Origin: a virus
Length of the DNA: 23,953 nt
Direction: 5' to 3' (one strand)
Virus record (IMG/VR): IMGVR_UViG_3300011445_000064
Coordinates: 1-23,953 of that record
The notes beneath the pieces are model-generated. The model saw only the letters and a list, made by a program, of their open reading frames with translations, searched no databases and was not told the origin of the DNA. Positions 1,388 through 18,221 of this stretch are shown one piece after another. Position numbers and translations under genes: made by a program. Within the stretch, counting starts at the first letter, position 1. Each line of letters begins with the position of its first letter.

Positions 1388-2152
1388 TTACACACTCAGT
1401 CCCAGGGTGCAGCGGCAGTTCGGATGCGCGGGCGGCCCATCGATCTCGTCGCCATCCACGTCGAACATCTCATCGAGGCCGACGGTCACCCCGTCCATCG
1501 GTTCGCAGATCGGACACAGCCGGTCGTCAGGCGTCACGATCCATTCTTGCTTCTCCGAGCCGGTCAATAGACCGGCTTCGGTCGCTTGGTCCCACAGCTG
1601 AGACTGCCCTTCGTTCGCGGCCCGCATCGACTCTGTCCGCGCGATGGTCTCAGCTCGGGCGTCGTCGCCCAAGACGCGCCCAATCTCCTTCGCGAGGTCA
1701 TCCACGTCGAACTGCTGCGAGAACGCCTCTTCGACCAGGTCGCGGATCTCCTCGCGCGTCGTCTCACTGATGCCCTTGATCGTTTCTCCTGCATGGGCGT
1801 GAGCCCAAGCTGTGGCCTTCTTGTTTGTCACGTCGAAGGCAAAACCCTTCACTGCGGGAGGTGCAGCCGAGCGCAGTGAAGATGAAGCCTTCAACTGCAC
1901 CTTCAACGCCTTGGCTGCGGCAGTGCCCGTCGTCGTCAGGGCCGCAAGGAGCAACGGTTCCAGCGTGCTCTCGAGCGCCTTCTCGGTCGCCTCAATCGCG
2001 CGCCCCACAACGGCGAAGAGCGCCTTCTCGTCCTGCGCCTCCAGCGTGCTCTCGAGAGCACGCTGAGTCGCTGCCTCATGCCCGGCGCGGAACGCGGCCT
2101 TCGCGGCTCGCTTGATCCGAAGTGCGAAATCGGTCTGCCACTTGGTGAACAT
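1388..2152 (-). CDS. MuF-like minor head (head morphogenesis) protein
   Basis: This 254-residue protein has an N-terminal alanine-rich helical region, including a duplicated segment ALESTLE (about residues 33-39 and 60-66). The C-terminal half is a Mu protein F-type domain: ARTESMRAANEGQSQLWDQA, then WIVTPDDRLCPICEPMDG and PPAHPNCRCTLGL. The CPIC and NCRC pairs probably bind a metal. MuF proteins are minor capsid proteins packed near the portal and involved in head assembly or DNA ejection. The gene directly follows the portal and overlaps its end by 77 bases, an unusually long overlap. The ATG at 2152 has GGAAG only one base upstream and a further purine run AAAGGGGG about 20 bases away, so the start is only moderately supported. 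Confidence 0.85.
   Translation of the reverse strand: MFTKWQTDFALRIKRAAKAAFRAGHEAATQRALESTLEAQDEKALFAVVGRAIEATEKALESTLEPLLLAALTTTGTAAAKALKVQLKASSSLRSAAPPAVKGFAFDVTNKKATAWAHAHAGETIKGISETTREEIRDLVEEAFSQQFDVDDLAKEIGRVLGDDARAETIARTESMRAANEGQSQLWDQATEAGLLTGSEKQEWIVTPDDRLCPICEPMDGVTVGLDEMFDVDGDEIDGPPAHPNCRCTLGLSV
1959..2065. repeat. 17-bp direct repeat and 24-bp perfect palindrome inside the MuF-like gene
   Basis: The 17-base unit TCCAGCGTGCTCTCGAG occurs at 1959-1975 and again at 2040-2056, 81 bp apart. This corresponds to a 27-residue duplication in the protein. The second copy extends into a perfect 24-bp palindrome (2042-2065) centred on CTCGAG, with 12 bp on each side and no spacer. Confidence 0.9.
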
Positions 2153-3566
2153 GCTTCCAAGCCGGCGCCCCCTTTCGTGACGTCTTCAGCTTGTAGAAGT
2201 GCACCTGTCGCGCTTGCGACAACACCACCCACTTCCGCAAGAACACCTTGGCCGCAGCCGGTTCCATCTGCGCGGTGACTTCCTCGAGCTTGGGCAGACC
2301 GAGGATGCGATCTCGGATCTCCTCCGCCGTAACGACGGTCTCCCCGGCCGCTTGGTTCAGGCCCGCCCACTTCGACGCGATCTCCGCGCGCTGCCCATCG
2401 TCGAGTACTTTGAGCTGCGCCCATCGAACGTCGAACGTCCCGTCTTTCGGGCGGGGCAGTGCACCCCAGTCAATGAGGCGCTGCACGAACGGACGCACAA
2501 CGAGCGGGCCGCCGTAATCATCGCGTCGATCCGTCACGCGGTCATCCCAGTTCGAGCGGTCCATCGCGGCGGCCAGCTTACCCTGTTCGGACCCCATCAG
2601 CACGCGCTGCGGGATGCCTGTGCTCGCCGAGATCAATCCGATGATCGCGTTGACAGGGTTTTGGAAGTCCGCGACGTCTGATCCTAGAGGTGTGACCGTC
2701 ACGCCGCGCGTCGTCAGGTTCCGGCGCAGCCCGTGCTCGTATTCCTCGAGCTGCTTCTTGAAGGCGTCCATCGCCTTCGACTTGTTCGGGTCCGTCACGT
2801 CGTCGCCTTCGAACTCCACCTCGGGATCGATGTCAAACTGTGTGCCTTGGTCGGCCCTGCGCCAGAACGCCTCCGCGCCACCGCCCGAGACCTTCTCGAG
2901 GTCGTCCAGGTAGTTCCAGATCGATTCCAGGCGCGGCTCGCCGTAGATGCGGTCATCGAGCAGGCCGTCGGCGACATGGATCACGCGCGACCAGTGCACT
3001 TGCTTACCCACTACGTTCGAGTTCACCGAGTCCGGCGAGAGCATCGTCGTCCGCGTGATGTTATACATCACGGGCAAGCCGAAGCGCGGACTCGTCGGGT
3101 CGATGTCGAACTTGTAGATCTTCGCGTCCTCCTCCGAGTATGGCTGCAAGTACTTGATGTCATCGGCCGACGCGCGCTCGAGCGGCGTCGTCATGTCCCC
3201 CGGCGCACCAATCAAGACGATGGCGTAGCGCCCAATGCCCGCCAGGATGTCCGCACGCGCGAGCGTGGCCCAGATGTTGAGCTGCTCATTGAGTGCATCG
3301 AAGGCCGCCTCGAAAGCCGTTTGCGTCGTCGGGTCCTCATCCTCGATGACTTCCGCACCGCCGCGCCAGGTCGCTTTCGGCAACGCCTTGACGACGCGAT
3401 TGGCCACGCCGTTCCGGCGGAAGCGCGACCGATAGTCCGGCGGGAACAGCTCACGCTGATACCCGAGCGCGCGGTACAGGTCGCGCTTGCCACGGAACGT
3501 ATGCCCAGCGACGTTCGCCAGGCGCGCTCGTCCGACAAGCGTGGTCATCAGTGATCGGAATCCCAT
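2076..3566 (-). CDS. Portal protein (DUF1073 / Phage_portal_3 type)
   Basis: This protein has 496 residues from an ATG at 3566. That start is chosen over a GTG at 3572 because AAGGAG sits five bases before the ATG and too close to the GTG. Portal signatures include RNGVANRVVKALPKATWRGG near residue 52, QVHWSRVIHVADG, an internal IYGEPRLESIWNYLDDLEKV, and the C-terminal ISASTGIPQRVLMGSEQG followed by DRSNWDDRV. Portals form the dodecameric ring at the capsid vertex through which DNA is packaged and ejected. The length and the place right after the large terminase fit. The last 34 or so residues (KTSRKGAPAWKHVHQVADRF and on) are basic and overlap the MuF-like gene; third-position GC stays high, so the frame looks genuine up to the overlap. 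Confidence 0.92.
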   Translation of the reverse strand: MGFRSLMTTLVGRARLANVAGHTFRGKRDLYRALGYQRELFPPDYRSRFRRNGVANRVVKALPKATWRGGAEVIEDEDPTTQTAFEAAFDALNEQLNIWATLARADILAGIGRYAIVLIGAPGDMTTPLERASADDIKYLQPYSEEDAKIYKFDIDPTSPRFGLPVMYNITRTTMLSPDSVNSNVVGKQVHWSRVIHVADGLLDDRIYGEPRLESIWNYLDDLEKVSGGGAEAFWRRADQGTQFDIDPEVEFEGDDVTDPNKSKAMDAFKKQLEEYEHGLRRNLTTRGVTVTPLGSDVADFQNPVNAIIGLISASTGIPQRVLMGSEQGKLAAAMDRSNWDDRVTDRRDDYGGPLVVRPFVQRLIDWGALPRPKDGTFDVRWAQLKVLDDGQRAEIASKWAGLNQAAGETVVTAEEIRDRILGLPKLEEVTAQMEPAAAKVFLRKWVVLSQARQVHFYKLKTSRKGAPAWKHVHQVADRFRTSDQASREGRVPRRA

Positions 3567-3575
3567 GGCCACTCC

Positions 3576-5063
3576 TTACCAAGTCATTGACGGCTTGCGC
3601 TTCGGCTTAGGTTCGAGGAGCACCGCATTGAAGGCACAGCTCGACCCGTCCACGTCGTCGTCGTGCTTGCCCGCAGGGAAGCCGCACACCACATTGAGGT
3701 AGGCTTCGTTCCACGGGCCCCGCACGAGGTAGACGTTGCCGGCTTCGACCTGCGCTCGGAACGGCTTCGCCCGCGTGATCTTCGACCCGCTGACCTGCAC
3801 GAACTTGTAGTCCCATCCGGCGAGCATCTTCCCGCGCGCTTCGACGACGGCCTTGCCCGATGCGCCGCCCTCTTTTTCTTCTCGGACGGCCACGCCTTTC
3901 CCATCGAGTTCGGCCGTCGCATACATCAGCTGATCCACGCCCGCAGGCGAGAGCTGCCCACGCTGCACGTCGCTGATGATGAAGCGCTTGTCTAGGGTCT
4001 CATCAATCCGCACGCCGACGGTCCAGTCTCCACCGTCTTCGGTACCGGCGGTGTCCCATCCTCGCGCACTGCGGACGATGTTGGTCGGGCGCGCATCGAG
4101 GAACTTGAACCAGCCGCGCTGGAACAGGCCGCCGCCCTTGAGCGATGGCTGCTGTTGGAGTTGCGCCTGCGCATCCCACGGACCCAGGTCGAGCTCGAGT
4201 TGGCGGACCTTGTCTTCGGGCACGAGCGCCGGGAAGAACAGCTCGCCTGCGACACGTCGGGGATCGCTCGGGTCCGGTGTGAAGCCGGGATCGTCTTCAG
4301 ACGCAGGACGCGCGACCTCGTACCGCATCGGCCACGTGACTACCTTCCAGCTGCCGCGCTTGATGAGGTGGCCCGACAGGTCGTCCACGTGCAGTCGCTG
4401 CATCACCACGATGATGCAGAGCTTCGGCCGCGTGATGCCGCGCGACGAGATGGTACCGTCGAACCATTCATTGGCGCGCGTGCGTTCGGGTTCGCTCTTC
4501 GCCTGTTCGACCGTCGTCGGATCATCGATGATGATGAGGTCCGGATGTTCGCCAGTACCGACGCCGTTGACCGAGGTGGCGATGCGCCAGCCACCGGCAT
4601 CGGTGTTGTACCGCGTCTTGGTGTTCTGGTCCTCGACGAGTTGCACCTTCCAGTATGACTGGAACCACGGGGAGACGATGATGTCTCGGACCCGCAGGTT
4701 ATCGCGCGTGGTCAGGTGCGCCGCATACGACGCGGTGAGGACACGAAGCTTCGGGTTCTTCGCCCAGCGCCAGGCCGGGAAGAACACACTGATGATGAGG
4801 GACTTCAGGGTGCCCGACGGGAAGTTGAAGATGACGCGGCGGTGCTTGCCCTGCGCCACTTCCTCGAGCACACGGCAGGTCTCGACCACGTGCCAGTTCG
4901 CGGTGAACGGCTGCGAAGGTTCGACGACGGACCACGCCGCCTTCACGAACTCGTAGAGCGAGTCCTCCAGGCGCATCCGCTCCATGTCATGCTGGAGCAG
5001 GACCGTGTCCGCCATCTCGGCGTCAAAGTCGTGGTCTGCGTGCTGTGTCGCCAGTTCGGTCAT
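3576..5063 (-). CDS. Terminase large subunit (ATPase and nuclease)
   Basis: This 495-residue protein is the phage DNA-packaging motor. The N-terminal ATPase has a variant Walker A (PSGTLKS, residues 82-88), a Walker B (LIIIDDP, about 176-182) preceded by the terminase motif SVNGVGTGEHPD, and a coupling-like segment CIIVVMQRLH. The C-terminal RNase H-fold nuclease starts at GWDTAGTEDGGDWTVGV, where D337 is the likely first metal ligand, and ends with the acidic KHDDDVDG segment. The stop overlaps the ribosome binding site of the portal gene, so the two are coupled. The start has no close Shine-Dalgarno; GGAGGGGAGG lies about 20 bases upstream of the ATG at 5063. No intein or frameshift is seen. 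Confidence 0.93.
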   Translation of the reverse strand: MTELATQHADHDFDAEMADTVLLQHDMERMRLEDSLYEFVKAAWSVVEPSQPFTANWHVVETCRVLEEVAQGKHRRVIFNFPSGTLKSLIISVFFPAWRWAKNPKLRVLTASYAAHLTTRDNLRVRDIIVSPWFQSYWKVQLVEDQNTKTRYNTDAGGWRIATSVNGVGTGEHPDLIIIDDPTTVEQAKSEPERTRANEWFDGTISSRGITRPKLCIIVVMQRLHVDDLSGHLIKRGSWKVVTWPMRYEVARPASEDDPGFTPDPSDPRRVAGELFFPALVPEDKVRQLELDLGPWDAQAQLQQQPSLKGGGLFQRGWFKFLDARPTNIVRSARGWDTAGTEDGGDWTVGVRIDETLDKRFIISDVQRGQLSPAGVDQLMYATAELDGKGVAVREEKEGGASGKAVVEARGKMLAGWDYKFVQVSGSKITRAKPFRAQVEAGNVYLVRGPWNEAYLNVVCGFPAGKHDDDVDGSSCAFNAVLLEPKPKRKPSMTW

Positions 5064-5365: not shown

Positions 5366-6716
<1,351 letters not shown>

Positions 6717-7086: not shown

Positions 7087-7539
7087 TCACTCCTTGGGCA
7101 AGCGCACGTAAACGACGTGAGGACCGCCGATGAGATGTTCGAAGACGCCCGTCCCGTTGACGCTCTTGCCGTCCTCGCTGGTGTTGCCGGCAATGCCCGT
7201 GACTTCGGTGGCATTCACTCCGGTGACAATCCCCACGTGGTGCGCGTGTCCGGCGTCATCCGTGTAGAAGAACAGGTCGTCGGGCTGGGGAGCACCGGCG
7301 ACCACCCAGCCGCGCGTATTCGCTTGGTCGAGCAACGCCTGACACGATGCGCTCCGCTTGAGCGGGCACAGTCCACGGTAGGCGATGTCCAGGACCATCG
7401 AGACGAACGATGCACACCAAGAGTCGCCGACGCGATTCCAGGTGAAGCGCTGGAAAAAGTTGACCCAGCTGCCGTCGTTCGCGCCGCCCACTTCACGGAC
7501 GAAGGTGAAGCGTCGGGCGATGATGGATGCTGAGGCCAT
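7087..7539 (-). CDS. CHAP-domain peptidoglycan hydrolase (endolysin)
   Basis: This 150-residue protein is a single CHAP amidase/peptidase domain. The catalytic cysteine is C42 in GDSWCASFVSMVLD, the histidine is H101 in HAHHVGIVTGV, and N119 in GIAGNTSEDG fits the third position. The N-terminal FVREVGGANDGSWVNFFQRF is typical of phage CHAP endolysins. It would cleave cell-wall peptides or amide bonds for host lysis. ATG 7539 is preferred over upstream in-frame starts because it overlaps the preceding stop as TAATG and has GGGAG upstream. There is no signal peptide, so it needs a holin or another export route. Two small genes and a lipoprotein follow and may complete the lysis cassette. Confidence 0.88.
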   Translation of the reverse strand: MASASIIARRFTFVREVGGANDGSWVNFFQRFTWNRVGDSWCASFVSMVLDIAYRGLCPLKRSASCQALLDQANTRGWVVAGAPQPDDLFFYTDDAGHAHHVGIVTGVNATEVTGIAGNTSEDGKSVNGTGVFEHLIGGPHVVYVRLPKE

Positions 7540-8021
7540 TAGTGTGTGACTCCCTGAGTCGACTGATCCATCGGCGGCGGCGCACCGACCTGTCGGGCGC
7601 GCACGGCGTCCTTGATGCACTTGATCTGCGCGAGCAAGCCCGTGAGTTCTGCGCGTTCCTCAGGCGTCAAGAGTGACAACGCGATGGCCCCATCGTTCTG
7701 AGGCGTCACCGTGATCGTCTGAGCCGACCCGAATCCCGTGCGGTTCAAGACCGCCTCCGCCGCGCGGATGGCGACTCGCTGACGGTCGGAATCTCCCGAG
7801 GGAAAGCCGCACGTCGCGCAGGTCGCCGACAAGAACTGGTCGAGCACGTGCTGCAACGCTTCGATAGCGGGCATCCGCGCGAGTGCGAGCGCGTGCTCAG
7901 CTTTGATCTTCGACTCGGGGAACTGCGCACCGTGCTTACTGCATCGCGTGAAGCCCGGCTTGACATCGCGCCTGCACGGGTCGCCTAAGGAGTTGAGTCC
8001 GCCGTTGTCCCCGCACTTCAT
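7539..8021 (-). CDS. Putative terminase small subunit
   Basis: This 160-residue protein has an N-terminal Cys/His cluster (KCGDNGGLNSLGDPCRRD, then CSKHG), a helical middle (ALALARMPAIEALQHVLDQF), a second CxxC (CATCGFPSGD), and the segment RQRVAIRAAEAVLNRTGFG seen in phage small-terminase-like proteins. Small terminases bind the packaging site and hand DNA to the large subunit. The large subunit here is about 2.5 kb further downstream, with lysis and sugar genes in between. ATG 8021 is preceded by GAGG at about four bases. The gene is the first after the repeat-rich intergenic region. The assignment is by resemblance and context, so moderate. Confidence 0.62.
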   Translation of the reverse strand: MKCGDNGGLNSLGDPCRRDVKPGFTRCSKHGAQFPESKIKAEHALALARMPAIEALQHVLDQFLSATCATCGFPSGDSDRQRVAIRAAEAVLNRTGFGSAQTITVTPQNDGAIALSLLTPEERAELTGLLAQIKCIKDAVRARQVGAPPPMDQSTQGVTH

Positions 8022-8110
8022 CGCGCCTCGATTGTACCACGCCGCGCAACGTGACGCGGGCCGACGTTGCCTTCATGGGAAGCATCAGGTCGAGATGTGA
8101 GGGCAGGCGC

Positions 8111-8141
8111 ATCTGTAACCATCTGTTACTTGATCTGTTAC
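8111..8141 (+). repeat. Left iteron cluster, three ATCTGTWAC sites
   Basis: Copies are ATCTGTAAC at 8111-8119, ATCTGTTAC at 8121-8129 and ATCTGTTAC at 8133-8141. A degenerate fourth copy may end at 8150 (CGATTTAC). The sites are spaced 10-12 bp, about one helical turn, so a protein could bind them on one face of the DNA. The cluster is oriented opposite to the cluster at 8180-8206. Confidence 0.85.
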
Positions 8142-8179
8142 TCGATTTACTCCGGTGATTGTTGATGATTATTGATAAG

Positions 8180-8206
8180 GTAACAGATGATACAGATGAT
8201 ACAGAT
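8180..8206 (-). repeat. Right iteron cluster, three tandem 9-bp units
   Basis: GTAACAGAT (8180-8188) is followed without gap by GATACAGAT (8189-8197) and GATACAGAT (8198-8206), then a partial GATAG. The first unit is the reverse complement of the left-cluster motif. A further half-like site, GTGTGTTAC, lies at 8211-8219. The two clusters face each other across the AT-rich core. Confidence 0.85.
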
Positions 8207-8235
8207 GATAGTGTGTTACGTGGGTCCTGCGTCAA
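8205..8235 (-). promoter_or_regulatory. Candidate promoter for the small-terminase operon
   Basis: On the minus strand, TTGACG (8235-8230) and TATCAT (8210-8205) each match five of six bases of the sigma-70 elements, but the 19-base spacer is longer than ideal. The -10 lies inside the right repeat cluster, so a protein bound there could control it. This is a weak, by-eye prediction. Confidence 0.3.
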
Positions 8236-8303
8236 TGTGCGCTGTGTCACTGCCAGAGGACAGGCGCACTTACGATGCGTTTAGATCTTGACCCGCCTCC
8301 TCG

Positions 8304-8312
8304 ATCTGTTAC
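8304..8312 (+). repeat. Isolated copy of the ATCTGTTAC motif
   Basis: An exact copy of the left-cluster motif lies about 100 bp from the right cluster, between it and the inverted repeat at 8378-8411. Confidence 0.7.
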
Positions 8313-8377
8313 CCCGTCGGAAGCGCTTTGGGAACGTCGCAACTCTCGAGGGTTCAAGCAGTTGCAGGAAAGACAGG

Positions 8378-8411
8378 AGGTTACAGATGAAAAGCGCGAG
8401 ATCTGTAACCT
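8378..8411. repeat. Perfect 11-bp inverted repeat built from two motif copies
   Basis: AGGTTACAGAT (8378-8388) and ATCTGTAACCT (8401-8411) are exact reverse complements separated by 12 bases. The arms contain the same 9-bp motif as the clusters. The spacing is typical of a dimeric repressor or initiator site, and the element could also form a hairpin in RNA. Confidence 0.85.
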
Positions 8412-8489: not shown

Positions 8490-10601
8490 TCAAAACGGAA
8501 TCGCGTTAGACGCAGTACTTGCGGGATCTGTGGGCCAATCGGAAGGCGCGCCAGCCTCCGCGTCGAACACCTGACGCGCATCACCAAGTGTTCTCAGATC
8601 AATGCAACGGATGACTTCACCCTTGATCTTCCGTGATTTGGACTCACCCGCGCTGAAGAATTCGATCATGCGTCGTCCGAACTCAACCTTAGACAGCAAG
8701 CGCGTTTTGCGCACAGAGCTCCAACTTGAATAAGCTTCGAATAGGGACGCGACAGGAACCCACTCCGCACCTGGCCATCCAAGCTGAGCAATGCGTCCCT
8801 CATACAAGCAGTCCTGCCACCACTCGAGCACAGGACTCAAACTCTGCGCCTGCTGCGCACGCAGCTCTTCGGTCTTCGGCACGGTGCGCAGCGCCTGACG
8901 GTCGAAGGGTCGCTTGAGCATCATATCGAGAAAGGCCGACAGGCCTCCGTCGAGAAGTTCCTTCTCGACGGCCTGGAAGTACGCTTGGTCGCCCATCCGC
9001 GCGCTCGAGACTTTCAGCGCCAAGAAGCGTCGTTCGCCCAACTGCGCGGGGATCGACCAATCATCATTCGTCGCCATGAAGAGATGGATGGAGTTCGACT
9101 CCTGCACCGAGTCGATGCCTTTCCGGGTGATTCTGAGCGTTGGCTCAGTAATCAGCCGTTTCAATGCAGCCACCTCACGCTTGTCGCCCGCCCAGAACGC
9201 TTCGTCACCGAACACGATGATCTTGCCGGAGATGGCCGCGTTGAAGTTGCCCACCAGGTCGGCGGTCTTGTCGAGATGCGCGAAGTGCCGCTCGAAGATG
9301 CGCCCCAAGGCACGGACAAAGGTGCCTTTCCCCGTGCCGGGCTTCCCGCGCATGACGACGGCCACTTCGGACTGGTAGCCGGGCTCCTGGCACGTGAGTG
9401 CGAGGAGGTCAAGCAAGTACTCGTAGTGCGCGACGTTGCCCGAGCAGATGATATCTTTGACATGCGCGAGGAAGAGTCGGCACTCCCCGGGCACGGGGAG
9501 TACCGAGAAGCCGGTCCACAAGTTGTAATCCACCGCCTCCACCGGACGAGGTGGAGGCGAGAACACCACCTCACGATACGACCTGCGCTGCTTCGACTCG
9601 AGCCACGCCTGGAACAGCGGTTTCCACGTCGGCTTGCCTTTCTCGTCGAGGCCCACGATCACTTGGCGGTTTGCGTACTCGGTGTAGAGCGAACGCGGTT
9701 TCTGGAAGACGACACCACCAGTGGCGTCTTCTCTTCCAATCGCGTCGTCCTTTCCCAGCCGGCACCAGAAGTGCTTCGCGTTCATCTCCTCGATGGCGTC
9801 CCCGTCGGCGAGCTTCAACCAGCCGCGCATCTTCGCCACGACCTCAGGCCCGAGGTCGTCGGTCAGCTTCGGACCGCCGGTGACGTTCTCTCCCGCACGA
9901 TGCTTGGCCACGGTCGACGTGGCGAACTTGACCCGGTCGGCCAGATCCGGGTCACCGGCGATACGGGCGGCGCTAGAGATGATCCGGATGACCTGAGCGC
10001 CCTCGAGGCCTGCTTGACACAGGAACCCGGCGAGGTGTCCCACGGCGCCGTGCCGCACGCCTGCGCCCGGCCAATGCCGGGCCAGGAGCGCCACCAGGGC
10101 CACCCCGCGGACCGCGGCATACAAGTCCTCCGGCGTCATGACCATCAGGTCACGCTCGACCGTCCACGCCAGCACGTCCCCGGACGGGTGCGTGCTGGGC
10201 GGCAGGGCGGTGTAACCGCCGGTGCTGCGGATCTCGACGAGCATGGACGTCGTGCCGCCTGCTCCTGCGGCGCGGACGTCGGTGAATTGCGTAGTCTTGA
10301 TGCCGTCGCAGCCGTACCAGTAATGCGAGTCCGGCTTGCCAGGCCGCCCATGCACCATGCCGGTGCGCGGCAGCAAGTCCCGCGCAGCCTCGACGGCCTC
10401 ACGCGAGTCGAGGTCCACGTCTACGCGCCACCCCGAGGGCTCCCCGCACTTGCCGGCGATGCCGTCGGTGGGGCCGAAGTCCTTCGGCTCGTAGGTCTTC
10501 TTCTGCCAGGACGACGACGCGCGCTTCTCGCCTTTGACGAGTGGGACGACCGCCCAGCCTTGATCGATGTAGTGCTTCGCGATGAAGCGGATATCAGCCA
10601 C
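8490..10601 (-). CDS. Primase-polymerase / superfamily 3 helicase replication protein
   Basis: This 703-residue protein combines two replication enzymes. The N-terminal prim-pol domain shows the metal-binding DVDLD (61-65), SHYWY (His 93) and LVEIRSTGGYTALPPSTHPS (Glu 123 onward). The C-terminal half is an SF3-like AAA+ helicase: Walker A GKPGTGKGT (419-427), Walker B IVFGDEA (about 462-468), and FMATNDDWSIP followed by GERRFLAL, which includes the sensor asparagine and arginine. It would prime and unwind phage DNA. The GTG at 10601 is chosen because GGGAG lies six bases before it and the homology-like start MADIRFIAKHYIDQGWAVVP follows. It overlaps the preceding small gene by eight bases. 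The stop is next to the iteron region, consistent with an origin there. Confidence 0.92.
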   Translation of the reverse strand: MADIRFIAKHYIDQGWAVVPLVKGEKRASSSWQKKTYEPKDFGPTDGIAGKCGEPSGWRVDVDLDSREAVEAARDLLPRTGMVHGRPGKPDSHYWYGCDGIKTTQFTDVRAAGAGGTTSMLVEIRSTGGYTALPPSTHPSGDVLAWTVERDLMVMTPEDLYAAVRGVALVALLARHWPGAGVRHGAVGHLAGFLCQAGLEGAQVIRIISSAARIAGDPDLADRVKFATSTVAKHRAGENVTGGPKLTDDLGPEVVAKMRGWLKLADGDAIEEMNAKHFWCRLGKDDAIGREDATGGVVFQKPRSLYTEYANRQVIVGLDEKGKPTWKPLFQAWLESKQRRSYREVVFSPPPRPVEAVDYNLWTGFSVLPVPGECRLFLAHVKDIICSGNVAHYEYLLDLLALTCQEPGYQSEVAVVMRGKPGTGKGTFVRALGRIFERHFAHLDKTADLVGNFNAAISGKIIVFGDEAFWAGDKREVAALKRLITEPTLRITRKGIDSVQESNSIHLFMATNDDWSIPAQLGERRFLALKVSSARMGDQAYFQAVEKELLDGGLSAFLDMMLKRPFDRQALRTVPKTEELRAQQAQSLSPVLEWWQDCLYEGRIAQLGWPGAEWVPVASLFEAYSSWSSVRKTRLLSKVEFGRRMIEFFSAGESKSRKIKGEVIRCIDLRTLGDARQVFDAEAGAPSDWPTDPASTASNAIPF

Positions 10602-10755
10602 GCGGCTCTCCCGTAATGCGGAGAGTCGGCATCCCCGCGCGGGTCTGCGCATACGGACACAGCGAGTTGTGACCGTACTCGGTGACACACTGACAATCAG
10701 ACTTCTGTTCCAGCAGGTCGATCAGTTCTTGAGTCGTGCGGCGCTTGATGGCCAA
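10594..10755 (-). CDS. Small Cys-containing protein with TTG start (53 aa)
   Basis: The likely start is TTG at 10755, six bases after a perfect AGGAGG (10767-10762); the nearest in-frame alternatives lie upstream of that site. The product begins MAIKRRTTQELIDLLEQKSD (TTG read as Met) and continues CQCVTEYGHNSLCPYAQ. The three cysteines plus a histidine suggest a small metal-binding fold. It overlaps the primase start by eight bases and is probably co-translated with it. I do not recognise its function. Confidence 0.65.
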   Translation of the reverse strand: MAIKRRTTQELIDLLEQKSDCQCVTEYGHNSLCPYAQTRAGMPTLRITGEPRG

Positions 10756-10780: not shown

Positions 10781-11005
10781 TCACGCACCACCGCAGGCCA
10801 CCCGATACGCCTCCATCGGGTCGTCAGGTTCGGGCGGCAGATCAGGACACTGATCGCACAGCCACGGTGTGTCCACGTGAGGCATGGTGTCGGCGCGTGC
10901 GAGTTCCGTCAACGGGATGATGACATTGTGTCCGCACGCCATCACGAGGATCACGCGCTGTTGGTGGCGTGCGTCGATCACGCGCTTGATGCGTTGTGGT
11001 CTCAT
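10781..11005 (-). CDS. Small zinc-ribbon-like protein (74 aa)
   Basis: ATG 11005 overlaps the stop of the GDP-mannose dehydratase gene as ATGA. The product has a CGH (ILVMACGHNVIIPL) and a CxxC (WLCDQCPDL) about 25 residues apart, a layout typical of one treble-clef or ribbon zinc site, then an acidic proline-rich tail (PPEPDDPMEAYRVACGGA). Such proteins often bind nucleic acid or partner proteins. No specific function can be assigned. Confidence 0.7.
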   Translation of the reverse strand: MRPQRIKRVIDARHQQRVILVMACGHNVIIPLTELARADTMPHVDTPWLCDQCPDLPPEPDDPMEAYRVACGGA

Positions 11006-11994
11006 GATGCGTGTCTCGCGAGATCGGCGGTGACCATCGACCTGACGAGCTCAGGGAAACCCAGGGTAGGTCGCCACTTGAGCACGGTCTGAGCGCGCGT
11101 GCTGTTGCCGCACAGGTGGTGCACCTCCGCAGGTCGCAGGAGCGCGCCGTCATTATACACGACGCAACGACGCCAATCATACCCGAGCGATCCATAGGCG
11201 AGCTCGAGGAACTCCTGCACCGAGTGCATCTCGCCCGTGGCGATCACGAAATCATCCGCATGCTCTTGCAAGACCATGCGGTGCATCGCCTCGACGTAAT
11301 CGCCGGCGAAACCCCAGTCCCGCTTCGCGCTGATGTTCCCCAGGCGCAGCATGTCTCCACCGTCAGCTTGACGCTTACCCGTATGCTGTCTAGCGACAGC
11401 ATCCGTGATCTTCCGCGTGACGAACTCGAGCCCACGCAGCATGGACTCGTGGTTGAACAGGATGCCACAGGAGATGTGCATCTGGAAGGATTCGCGGTAG
11501 TTCACCGCGAGATGATGCGCGGCGACCTTGGACACGCCATATGGCGAACGCGGATGGAAGGGTGTCGTCTCGTCCTGCGGGCACGTTCCGGGAATCCCAC
11601 CGAACATCTCAGACGAGGATGCTTGGTAGATGCGCACAGCACTGACTTCGTCATACACCTCCCGAACTGCCTCGAGGAGACGCAAGAGTCCGCCTGCGTT
11701 AACATCCATCGTGAGTTCAGCCTGACGCCAGGAGTCCCCGACGAATGACATCGCGGCGAGGTTGTAGATCTCGTTCGGGTAGACGTCTTTCAACGCCTGC
11801 ACGAGTGATCCGCGATCCGTCAGGTCGCCGCTGACGAACCGGAGGTCCTCAGCCAGGTGCGTCAGACGCCAGTGAGACTCCGCGCTGATGCGCCGCGTGA
11901 GACCATAGACGTCGTATCCCTGCCCGAGGAGCAGACGCGCGAGATAACTCCCGTCCTGCCCCGTGATGCCCGTAATCAGCGCGCGCTTCGCCAT
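11002..11994 (-). CDS. gmd: GDP-mannose 4,6-dehydratase
   Basis: This 330-residue enzyme begins MAKRALITGITGQDGSYLAR, the hallmark NADP-binding start of GDP-mannose dehydratases. Other family marks are IYQASSSEMFG (catalytic Ser/Glu region), SPYGVSKVAAHHLAVNYRES (Tyr and Lys of the YxxxK motif), and RLGNISAKRDWGFAGDYVEA. It converts GDP-D-mannose to GDP-4-keto-6-deoxy-D-mannose, the first step to GDP-L-fucose and related deoxysugars; the next enzyme is encoded at 5366-6283. The ATG at 11994 has AGGAG eight bases upstream and is preferred over the longer frame starting at 12069. It overlaps the HNH gene by 19 bases. An 8-bp inverted repeat lies at 11383-11402. Confidence 0.93.
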   Translation of the reverse strand: MAKRALITGITGQDGSYLARLLLGQGYDVYGLTRRISAESHWRLTHLAEDLRFVSGDLTDRGSLVQALKDVYPNEIYNLAAMSFVGDSWRQAELTMDVNAGGLLRLLEAVREVYDEVSAVRIYQASSSEMFGGIPGTCPQDETTPFHPRSPYGVSKVAAHHLAVNYRESFQMHISCGILFNHESMLRGLEFVTRKITDAVARQHTGKRQADGGDMLRLGNISAKRDWGFAGDYVEAMHRMVLQEHADDFVIATGEMHSVQEFLELAYGSLGYDWRRCVVYNDGALLRPAEVHHLCGNSTRAQTVLKWRPTLGFPELVRSMVTADLARHAS

Positions 11995-12275
11995 GAGACG
12001 TTCTCCTCGGGAGATTGCCACTCGAGGTGGCGTGGGTTGATGCAGAGTCGGTTCTCGCCAACGGGACACGTATGTCCGGCATGGTGTCGTGCCGTCGGAG
12101 ATGGCCCGTGGAACCAGGTGCAGACGACCCGCGTCACCGCGACGACGCGGTGCCCATCACGGATCACGGGCCGCCGCGTGCCGTGACGCTTTAACGAGAG
12201 CGCACCCGTCCACAGGATGCAGGCGTCAGGGTCGTCCGGAATCGTGGCCTTCGCCCATACGCGCGCCCAGAGCAT
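11976..12275 (-). CDS. HNH endonuclease
   Basis: This 99-residue protein begins at ATG 12275, which overlaps the preceding stop as TAATG. The C-terminal part is an HNH fold of the homing type: HHAGHTCPVGENRLCINPRH (H68, C70, C78, N80, H83), then LEWQSPEENVSWR. The N-terminal part, ATIPDDPDACILWTGALS, fits the usual substrate-binding lead. These free-standing phage nucleases cut DNA near their own gene and spread by repair, or assist DNA processing. Its place directly before gmd suggests that either the nuclease or the sugar gene was inserted here. Confidence 0.82.
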   Translation of the reverse strand: MLWARVWAKATIPDDPDACILWTGALSLKRHGTRRPVIRDGHRVVAVTRVVCTWFHGPSPTARHHAGHTCPVGENRLCINPRHLEWQSPEENVSWRSAR

Positions 12276-16580: not shown

Positions 16581-18221
16581 TCATGTCTCTCTCAGAATTT
16601 TCCGCCACTGGTCGACCGTCCATCGCGCCATGTCGTCTTTGCTCCGCAGTGCTCGGAGAATCGCGTGGTCAATAGTTTTCTGGCCCTTCGGACCCACCGC
16701 GACCACGTCCACGATCAGCATCGGCTGCGTGGCGCCCGGTCGCTCGATGCGCCCGATAGATTGCGTGCGCTCGAGCAAGCCGAGACCGTTCGACAGGTAG
16801 ACCGCGATGTTGGCGCCCGCAAAGTTCAGGGACGCGCCGCCGGCTTTCTGGTTCCCCACCACCGCTCCGCGCCGGCGGTTACCTCCGGGGGCGAGGAAGG
16901 TCTTGGCCGCGTGGCGTTCGTCCTTCGTCTGCCCACCCCGCAGCTGATACACCTCGGGGTATATCGCGCGGAGCGCCTGTGTCGTGCGCTCGAGTTCAGG
17001 CTTGAAGCGAGACCAGACGAGGAGCTTCTCGGGCTGGTTGTGGAACGTCTCGAGCCAATGGATGAAGGCATCAAGTTTCTCCCGTCCGATCTCGCGCGTC
17101 CCTTCGCTGACCAATGCGCCTAGTGGGGCGCTCGGTGTGGCCGGCACCGTCTCCGGATGCAGTGCACGCAAGAACTGCGGAAGCGGCTCGGTGATGTCCG
17201 GCGGAGGCGTCCAGCCGTCACCCTCGAGAAGAACGTCTTCGAGTCCGCCTAGAAAGCCTGACGTGAGCTGGGCCAGTCGCAGGCCTTTGACAATCGCTTG
17301 CTTGGAGACTGAGGCCTGCGTTCCGAGCCACGTGACCATGTCGTCACGCTGGGAGGTATACAGGGACCACGTGGTCGGCGTCAGGCGCGCTTCGACCGTG
17401 ACAGGCGGCAACATGGGCGGCAGGTCGAAACAATCGCGCGTGCGCCGCGACAGGACGTAGGGCGCCATGCGCTGGTTGTAGTCGTCGAGGTGCTGGTACT
17501 GCACCACCTTGCGATTGTCGTAACCACCCATGATGCAGTGCTTCGCCATGAATTGCGAACGACTGCTCAGCCCGAGAATCTGCGGGTCGAGGATCGACAT
17601 GGGGTAGAACGTATCCTCCGGGGCACCATCGCTGAGCGGGGTGCCGTTGAGGAGGGTCACCCGATCCGCACGCCGATTCCGCAGGCGGCGACAGGCGCGC
17701 ATCTGGTCGGAGAATCCTGACAAGGCCCAGCTTTCATCGAGGATGAGCCACACCCGGCGTCCGCGCAGTTGCTGCATGAGGTCGTGGAGACGATCTTCAC
17801 GTCGGATGAACTCGAAGTTGGTGATGACCCAGTTCAGCGCCATCGGGTCGAGCTGCAGCTCGGTGTAATTCTTGTGGTACTCGTGGATGACGTTAGGCAC
17901 TGCGTCCCAGGCGTGCTTGGCCACTTCGCCGAGCAGTGCGTCCGCGTCGGCCCAGGTCGAACGCGCGAAGCCCGGCGTTACCACGACCACGGTATTGACC
18001 TTGCGATCCAAGTAAAGAATCTGGCTCGCATCGACACATTGCTTGGACTTGCCCGCACCGACTTCGTCGGCGAGGAAGAACACGCGCGGGATGATGCGCC
18101 CGCGGGAGGGATCTGTGTCCGTCACGAGCTGGTACACTCCCTCGACTTGGTGCTCCCGATGCGGCCATTTCTCGTTGGCCGTCAGCAGCTTGAGGATCTG
18201 ATCGCGCGTGGGCTCAGCCAT
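16581..18221 (-). CDS. SNF2/DEAD-like superfamily 2 helicase
   Basis: This 546-residue protein has the full set of SF2 motifs: REHQVEGVYQL near the N-terminus, Walker A ADEVGAGKS (51-59), motif Ia VVVVTPGFARSTW, a DExx box LILDESWAL (160-168), motif III LLNGTPLSDG, and a C-terminal helicase half with LLVWSRFKPELE, VVGNQKAGGASLNFAGANIA and motif VI ERTQSIGRIERPG. The ordering is that of Swi2/Snf2-type ATPases, which translocate on double-stranded DNA. Phage versions are thought to aid replication or recombination. ATG 18221 overlaps the exonuclease gene by eight bases. Confidence 0.88.
   Translation of the reverse strand: MAEPTRDQILKLLTANEKWPHREHQVEGVYQLVTDTDPSRGRIIPRVFFLADEVGAGKSKQCVDASQILYLDRKVNTVVVVTPGFARSTWADADALLGEVAKHAWDAVPNVIHEYHKNYTELQLDPMALNWVITNFEFIRREDRLHDLMQQLRGRRVWLILDESWALSGFSDQMRACRRLRNRRADRVTLLNGTPLSDGAPEDTFYPMSILDPQILGLSSRSQFMAKHCIMGGYDNRKVVQYQHLDDYNQRMAPYVLSRRTRDCFDLPPMLPPVTVEARLTPTTWSLYTSQRDDMVTWLGTQASVSKQAIVKGLRLAQLTSGFLGGLEDVLLEGDGWTPPPDITEPLPQFLRALHPETVPATPSAPLGALVSEGTREIGREKLDAFIHWLETFHNQPEKLLVWSRFKPELERTTQALRAIYPEVYQLRGGQTKDERHAAKTFLAPGGNRRRGAVVGNQKAGGASLNFAGANIAVYLSNGLGLLERTQSIGRIERPGATQPMLIVDVVAVGPKGQKTIDHAILRALRSKDDMARWTVDQWRKILRET

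Follow-up and report, generated by a model that had tools for sequence, protein, structure and literature searches.

Described origins beside primase-helicase genes

In SaPI origins, two opposed sets of iterons flank an AT-rich region beside rep. In the record of Streptococcus phage Sfi21 (NC_000872), the annotated origin (34487-34784) directly follows the 3' end of the primase gene, in a non-coding region of 302 bp. The origin of phage P4 is of the iteron type, and its alpha primase is of the Toprim type (PMC4234260). Replication of the archaeal plasmid pRN1 needs a stretch located 3' of orf904, a gene encoding prim-pol, SF3 and winged-helix parts; the required element is a 100-nt stem-loop without iteron structure (PMC4234260). 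Action through a stem-loop has also been proposed for such phage proteins, including BIP-1, the recognition motifs having not yet been identified (PMC4234260).

The DNA analysed here, referred to as the window, is a complete source record, a 23,953-base virus fragment without end repeats and with a G+C content of 62.6%. Positions 8105-8411 are predicted to be a phage replication origin bound by the product of the adjacent primase-helicase gene (8490-10688), a reading from sequence to which we assign a probability of about 0.85. A replication start is very probable here because many phages unrelated to this one carry the same word and layout next to a gene of the same type. The original prediction had proposed an origin for the adjacent prim-pol/SF3 helicase, a pac/cos site or an operator; comparison with other phages strongly supported the first, and no positive support was found for either of the others.

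The likeness to the annotated Sfi21 origin is observed directly. Both loci are non-coding, lie directly 3' of a D5-like primase gene, and carry opposed tandem repeats with a GTWAC core (GTTAC-ended TTAGTTAC in Sfi21) around an AT-rich stretch. Sfi21, a Gram-positive, low-GC phage, differs in the 8-bp period of its repeat, compared with ATCTGTWAC at 9-12 bp in the window, and in that its AT-rich stretch is a long divergent-type spacer. The fold of the window primase-helicase resembles SaPI PriRep1 (7pds), which differs in being a satellite protein; the likeness is one of fold and layout. P4 alpha is also a primase-helicase with a C-terminal winged helix (origin-binding in P4, predicted in the window; 1ka8 aligned with Z 4.7), and differs in its Toprim-type primase and its iterons. 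The orf904 protein of pRN1 shares the prim-pol, SF3 and winged-helix parts (the last predicted in the window) and the non-coding stretch 3' of the gene; its stem-loop is without iterons, whereas the window has nine.

The primase gene (bbp29) of the Bordetella phage BPP-1 ends at 27,177, the coordinate given for the BIP-1 replication protein (PMC4234260). The inverted repeat 3' of this gene is composed of the 9-bp TTGCCTCGT, present as two tandem pairs that oppose each other (L459 1608-1711), and the stem-loop there can therefore be read as iterons. BPP-1 resembles the window in its order of primase, gap, endonuclease, TerS and TerL, with opposed 9-bp tandem repeats in the gap, and differs in the word and in having four copies.

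Gene content of the window

Nearly all of the family-matched genes of the window are carried on the minus strand. In minus-strand order, they include an SNF2-like helicase (16581-18221), a sugar-nucleotide dehydratase (11002-12069) and the primase-helicase, which is followed by a 468-bp intergenic gap that holds the iterons. The next gene downstream of the gap (7539-8021, minus strand) is, by position, the probable terminase small subunit. Its product showed no match in the Pfam, PHROG and NCBIfam families, and was 31% identical over 108 amino acids to the protein in the same place in the relative L129. The locus had been described as lying between the primase and the small terminase; the primase was borne out by family matches, and the small terminase is a designation by synteny. 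The order is completed by a gene resembling a CHAP endolysin (7087-7620), a pair of genes with no matches, and the genes for an epimerase (5366-6283), the large terminase (TerL; 3576-5063) and the portal (2076-3572).

Two sugar-nucleotide dehydratase/epimerase genes (5366-6283 and 11002-12069) thus lie amid replication and packaging genes, and are possibly involved in modification of host surface sugars. No RNA elements or tRNAs were found in the window with Rfam and ARAGORN, and a strand-specific GC skew plot of the window was uninformative, with no clear switch. A 6.7-kb contig (L128) encodes a large terminase that is 99% identical, and ends before the array region.

Iterons and the AT-rich core

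The repeats, their geometry and their position are observed directly. Seven exact copies of ATCTGTWAC are present in the window, where shuffling predicts 0.06; the maximum in any shuffle was one, and seven were reached in 0 of 100 shuffles. The left array consists of ATCTGTAAC as the outer copy (8111-8119) and ATCTGTTAC at 8121-8129 and 8133-8141, all on the plus strand and exact, the last with its GTTAC end toward the core. Facing it, on the minus strand, are an exact ATCTGTTAC next to the core (8180-8188) and two tandem copies of the variant ATCTGTATC (8189-8197 and 8198-8206), each with one mismatch. The prediction of three plus-strand copies (8111-8141) facing three tandem minus-strand copies (8180-8206) was thus confirmed by the match positions. 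The further copy foreseen at 8304 and the inverted repeat at 8378-8411 were both found: the former is an exact, outlying ATCTGTTAC (8304-8312, plus strand), and the latter is a perfect 11-bp inverted repeat (8378-8388 and 8401-8411, 12-nt gap) containing a divergent pair of exact ATCTGTAAC copies (8380-8388, minus strand; 8401-8409, plus strand), at a spacing common in other phages.

The copy number had been given as nine or ten. Nine copies stand, seven of them exact; the tenth, GTGTGTTAC at 8211-8219 on the plus strand, has two mismatches, keeps the GTTAC core only and is an uncertain, possibly degenerate copy. All nine are confined to 8111-8409, and a search of the whole 24-kb record identified no exact copy outside this interval, so that equally dense copies elsewhere in the record, for which a check had been suggested, were absent. 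The spacings are 0, 0, 1 and 3 bp between tandem copies, 12 bp in the divergent pair and 38 bp across the core.

The core (8142-8179) is 34% G+C against 62.6% for the window, in agreement with the earlier estimate of about one-third, and only 0.18% of the 38-mers of the window are as AT-rich. The lowest-GC 38-mers of the record start at 8155-8165 and overlap both the core and the minus-strand copies. The core contains ATTGATAAG, which resembles elements in the cores of other phages; it is the proposed site of melting and assembly. The marks of an iteron origin are thus found together, namely clustered short repeats, an AT-rich element and an adjacent gene for a primase and SF3 helicase.

The strand at 8105-8215 is predicted to fold into one long hairpin, far better than shuffled sequence (z -3.2, 0 of 200 shuffles), and pRN1 requires a 100-nt stem-loop 3' of its gene, with the same proposed for BIP-1 (PMC4234260). 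The opposed arrays might thus extrude as a single hairpin, recognised by structure and not by word. We consider this very improbable. Opposed repeats are bound to pair in this way; unrelated phages retain the exact word; and the tandem and divergent copies contribute nothing to a hairpin. Furthermore, the inverted repeat of BPP-1 is itself built of opposed TTGCCTCGT pairs, and the absence of iteron structure that characterises the pRN1 type does not hold for the nine iterons of the window.

The primase-helicase as the proposed initiator

The proposed initiator is the prim-pol/SF3 (D5-VapE-like) primase-helicase encoded on the minus strand at 8490-10688, ending 81 bp from the iterons. Its product matches the Pfam families Prim-Pol (6.8e-12), DUF5906 (2.4e-20) and VapE (8.3e-10), and the PHROG assignment is DNA primase. 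Against TIGR01613 (the P4 family), the protein scored 32.5 bits, below the cut-off of 108.7, and judged by sequence it is distant kin of this family and not a member. The best fold matches were the C-terminal region of the NrS-1 phage primase (top), ASFV PrimPol and SaPI PriRep1 with dsDNA, from a whole-protein model of modest quality (pTM 0.41).

The model of the last 173 residues (560-732) had a mean pLDDT of 87.7 and predicted a winged helix. The winged-helix-like part, covering approximately residues 643-713 (8550-8762, minus strand) according to the model and fold matches, is the proposed iteron reader. This C-terminal part matched RFX (Z 6.7), ORC/Cdc6 (up to 5.8), ASFV PrimPol (5.4) and the P4 origin-binding domain (4.7); as these values (all below 7) are within the range of a common fold, the matches are support and not proof. 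The RFX X-box contains GTTACC. This likeness was not relied on, as most iterons have A or C, and not C/T, as the base that follows GTWAC.

We infer a mechanism in which the primase-helicase would read the 9-bp iterons through its C-terminal winged helix, assemble on both opposed triple arrays and melt the 38-bp AT-rich core between them. An SF3 helicase ring would then be loaded on each side of the core and synthesis primed, which would make the locus active as an origin. The outlying copy and the divergent pair (8304-8409) may act as auxiliary sites.

The word in other phages

IMG/VR was scanned for two close exact copies of ATCTGTWAC, with the reversed word, scanned in the same way, as the control; the viral records are fragments, and many of the loci compared are related. 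Among the matches listed, 25 of 120 stretches carried four or more copies, with both orientations represented, in a span of 400 bp, compared with 1 of 116 for the reversed word. In unrelated phages, tandem copies were separated by gaps of 0-3 bp (a period of 9-12 bp) and divergent pairs by gaps of mostly 8-12 bp. The convergent gaps were spread to both sides of a commonest class of 36-40 bp (8 of 21, in a set unselected for spacing). The core lengths give a suggestion of helical phasing: the motif-only set of 16 gaps gave p of approximately 0.01-0.06 over several tested periods, and a larger set of gaps was biased by the search pattern.

An AT-rich convergent core is not a general feature, the cores of other phages being near the GC content of their loci and the long divergent spacer being their AT-rich part. 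For CCTTGATA/ATTGATAA, a possible common element of the cores, the evidence is no more than suggestive, its best 6-mers lying close to the upper end of what shuffles produce. Many convergent cores, for example those of L127, L254, L293 and the window (8142-8179), contain a TTGATA-like element (AAACCCTTGATAT, TTATTGATAA), with weak enrichment over shuffles.

When one genome from each species was scanned more strictly, the matches included contigs of Lederbergia, Ruminococcus bromii and Thiothrix, and a Prolixibacteraceae MAG. This MAG (UBA10471) contains palindromic arrays of an 11-bp unit that includes ATCTGTAAC on seven contigs (L250, L252, L253, L255, L256, L257 and L258), and these arrays possibly represent a repeat of an unrelated kind. 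Clusters confined to one strand and spaced by multiples of 6 (L030, L056, L081, L105, L120 and others) looked like coding repeats and were set aside. Searches of the openly accessible literature identified no description of a single exact word common to phages of different phyla, and searching with the letters of the motif returned unrelated papers only.

Association with SF3 primase genes

The association of the clusters with SF3 primases is observed directly. DUF5906 was encoded by 41 of 50 cluster records, and either DUF5906 or VapE, both SF3-type primase-helicase domains, by 43 of 50; for the control-scan records the figure was 3 of 50, with DUF5906 as the one family searched. In many lineages for which the retrieved DNA included the primase, the cluster started between -71 and +187 bp from the primase stop codon (L018, +17; L087, +5; Thiothrix L254, +29). 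These stop-adjacent clusters included GC-balanced phages (L018 and L087), VapE phages (L069, L079 and L285) and L254. The cluster was 2-5 kb further 3' of the primase in L262 and L100, and 5' of the primase gene in L083. Phages with primases less than 20% identical had ATCTGTWAC in common.

These data bear on a packaging start (pac or cos), at which the small terminase subunit would bind the repeats and the large subunit would cut. The gene order lends this some colour, as the next downstream gene of the window is in the small-terminase position with TerL following, and the cluster lies between the primase and terminase genes in several cluster phages. However, the repeats track SF3 primases (43/50 compared with 3/50, the control counting DUF5906 only), often touch the primase stop codon, and share their word among highly diverged primases. 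In Sfi21, approximately 6 kb separate the annotated origin, which has this geometry, from the cos site annotated at 40722-40736, and the cluster of L075 is flanked by a VapE gene and a prim-pol-like ORF, with no recognised terminase in the nearby ORF list. Packaging is thus unlikely as the main role, and its chance of being the correct explanation is slim.

In a motif-blind analysis, primase loci were fetched by protein and any 8-mer occurring at least five times within 400 bp, with both orientations represented, was recorded. Such arrays were present on the 3' side of the primase, at a distance of up to 5 kb, in 39 of 63 loci. The 5' side had none in 49 loci, and they were present in 3 of 87 control loci, one of which (L138) belongs to a record that itself encodes DUF5906. 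After removal of near-copies at 75% identity, the counts were 14 of 22 on the 3' side and 0 of 20 on the 5' side; for primases nearer to that of the window, they were 9 of 47 and 1 of 40, respectively. About half of the non-redundant SF3-primase loci, including YuA and Pam3, had no exact-8-mer array within approximately 5 kb on the 3' side. This counts against the origin reading, as do the loose repeats of the relative L379, the clusters beside integrase genes, the composition of the convergent cores in other phages and the GC skew without a clear switch. The words of the arrays varied, and included ATCTGTWAC, other xxxxGTWAC words, (A)TCTTGAAC, ATCTGTTC, TCTGGGTA, AGGTTGGA and more. Inverted distances in the first set clustered near 18-22, 46-48 and 57-60 bp, with tandem distances of 9-12 bp, and were less regular in the set nearer to the window's primase. 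On a primase tree (a quick tree with long branches), the ATCTGTWAC label required 8 changes compared with approximately 19 in shuffles; the word thus appears partly inherited and partly scattered.

Most SF3-primase phages could conceivably share a single origin design, with iteron words from a single drifting family (ATCT-GTWAC and its relatives, among them xxxx-GTWAC, ATCTTGAAC and ATCTGTTC) at fixed helical spacings, read by the winged helix of the primase; we put the chances of this at somewhat below even. Recognition of GTWAC may be ancient, since the sequence is found repeatedly, in phages of Bacteroidota, of Bacillota and of Gammaproteobacteria with primases that share less than 20% identity. 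To our knowledge, the origins of most environmental phages are unknown. If the single design is true, origins would be predictable from sequence alone. The 9-bp word, the spacing rules and the gene-side position amount to a testable prediction of the origin for this phage and dozens of others, across host phyla. Should the primase read the word, origins could be annotated from sequence, and primase-origin pairs could serve as tools with which phage replicons are built in laboratory strains.

Repeats in related phages

A single-protein search found no close relatives of the window primase, and alignments were therefore used. In the closest relative, L379 (primase 60% identical), one exact ATCTGTTAC, one copy of the variant ATCTGTATC and looser TGTTTC repeats were present. 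In L129, which has a primase approximately 40% identical, a TerL 53% identical and the gene order of the window, the corresponding gap contains repeats of ACCTGTTAC and of CTGTAAC. L130, also with the gene order of the window, has GTAAC/GTTAC repeats there, and the array word of a further relative, L382, is ATCTGTAC. The repeats of L379, L129 and L130 in the same place are related to those of the window and diverged from them; the site thus persists as its word drifts. With regard to the proposed check in close relatives, the place of the repeats was upheld, by related repeats, and their sequence was not.

Clusters beside integrase genes and other arrays

A second ATCTGTWAC cluster was present directly upstream of a tyrosine integrase gene in two prophage-like records (L084 601-837 and L086 5382-5645), mixed with AAGTGTWAC in L086. 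The other clusters of these records lie elsewhere in the same record (L274 5062-5355 and L348 11387-11783). In view of these two records, ATCTGTWAC may serve other roles. Integrase arm sites were considered for this reason and rejected, as most clusters adjoin primases.

The integrase-side clusters are also relevant to an operator, at which a phage regulator would bind the repeats and govern one of two operons, the late (terminase) or the replication one. The divergent pairs (GTWACAGAT-N12-ATCTGTWAC) resemble a dimer site, and a promoter-like match on the plus strand (8172-8200) overlaps the right array and is directed away from the late genes; however, such matches were near chance (1 compared with 0.3 expected). 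Nine copies with opposed triple arrays over 300 bp exceed the normal needs of an operator, and the gene common to the cluster loci, as far as examined, is the SF3 primase and not a regulator. An operator is thus an unlikely main role, with a similarly small probability to that of packaging, and a role as an origin would be compatible with autoregulation by the initiator.

Among the control-scan loci, L191 (2543-2817) and L240 were observed to carry an array of TGTAGACA, in ten copies and with similar spacing rules.
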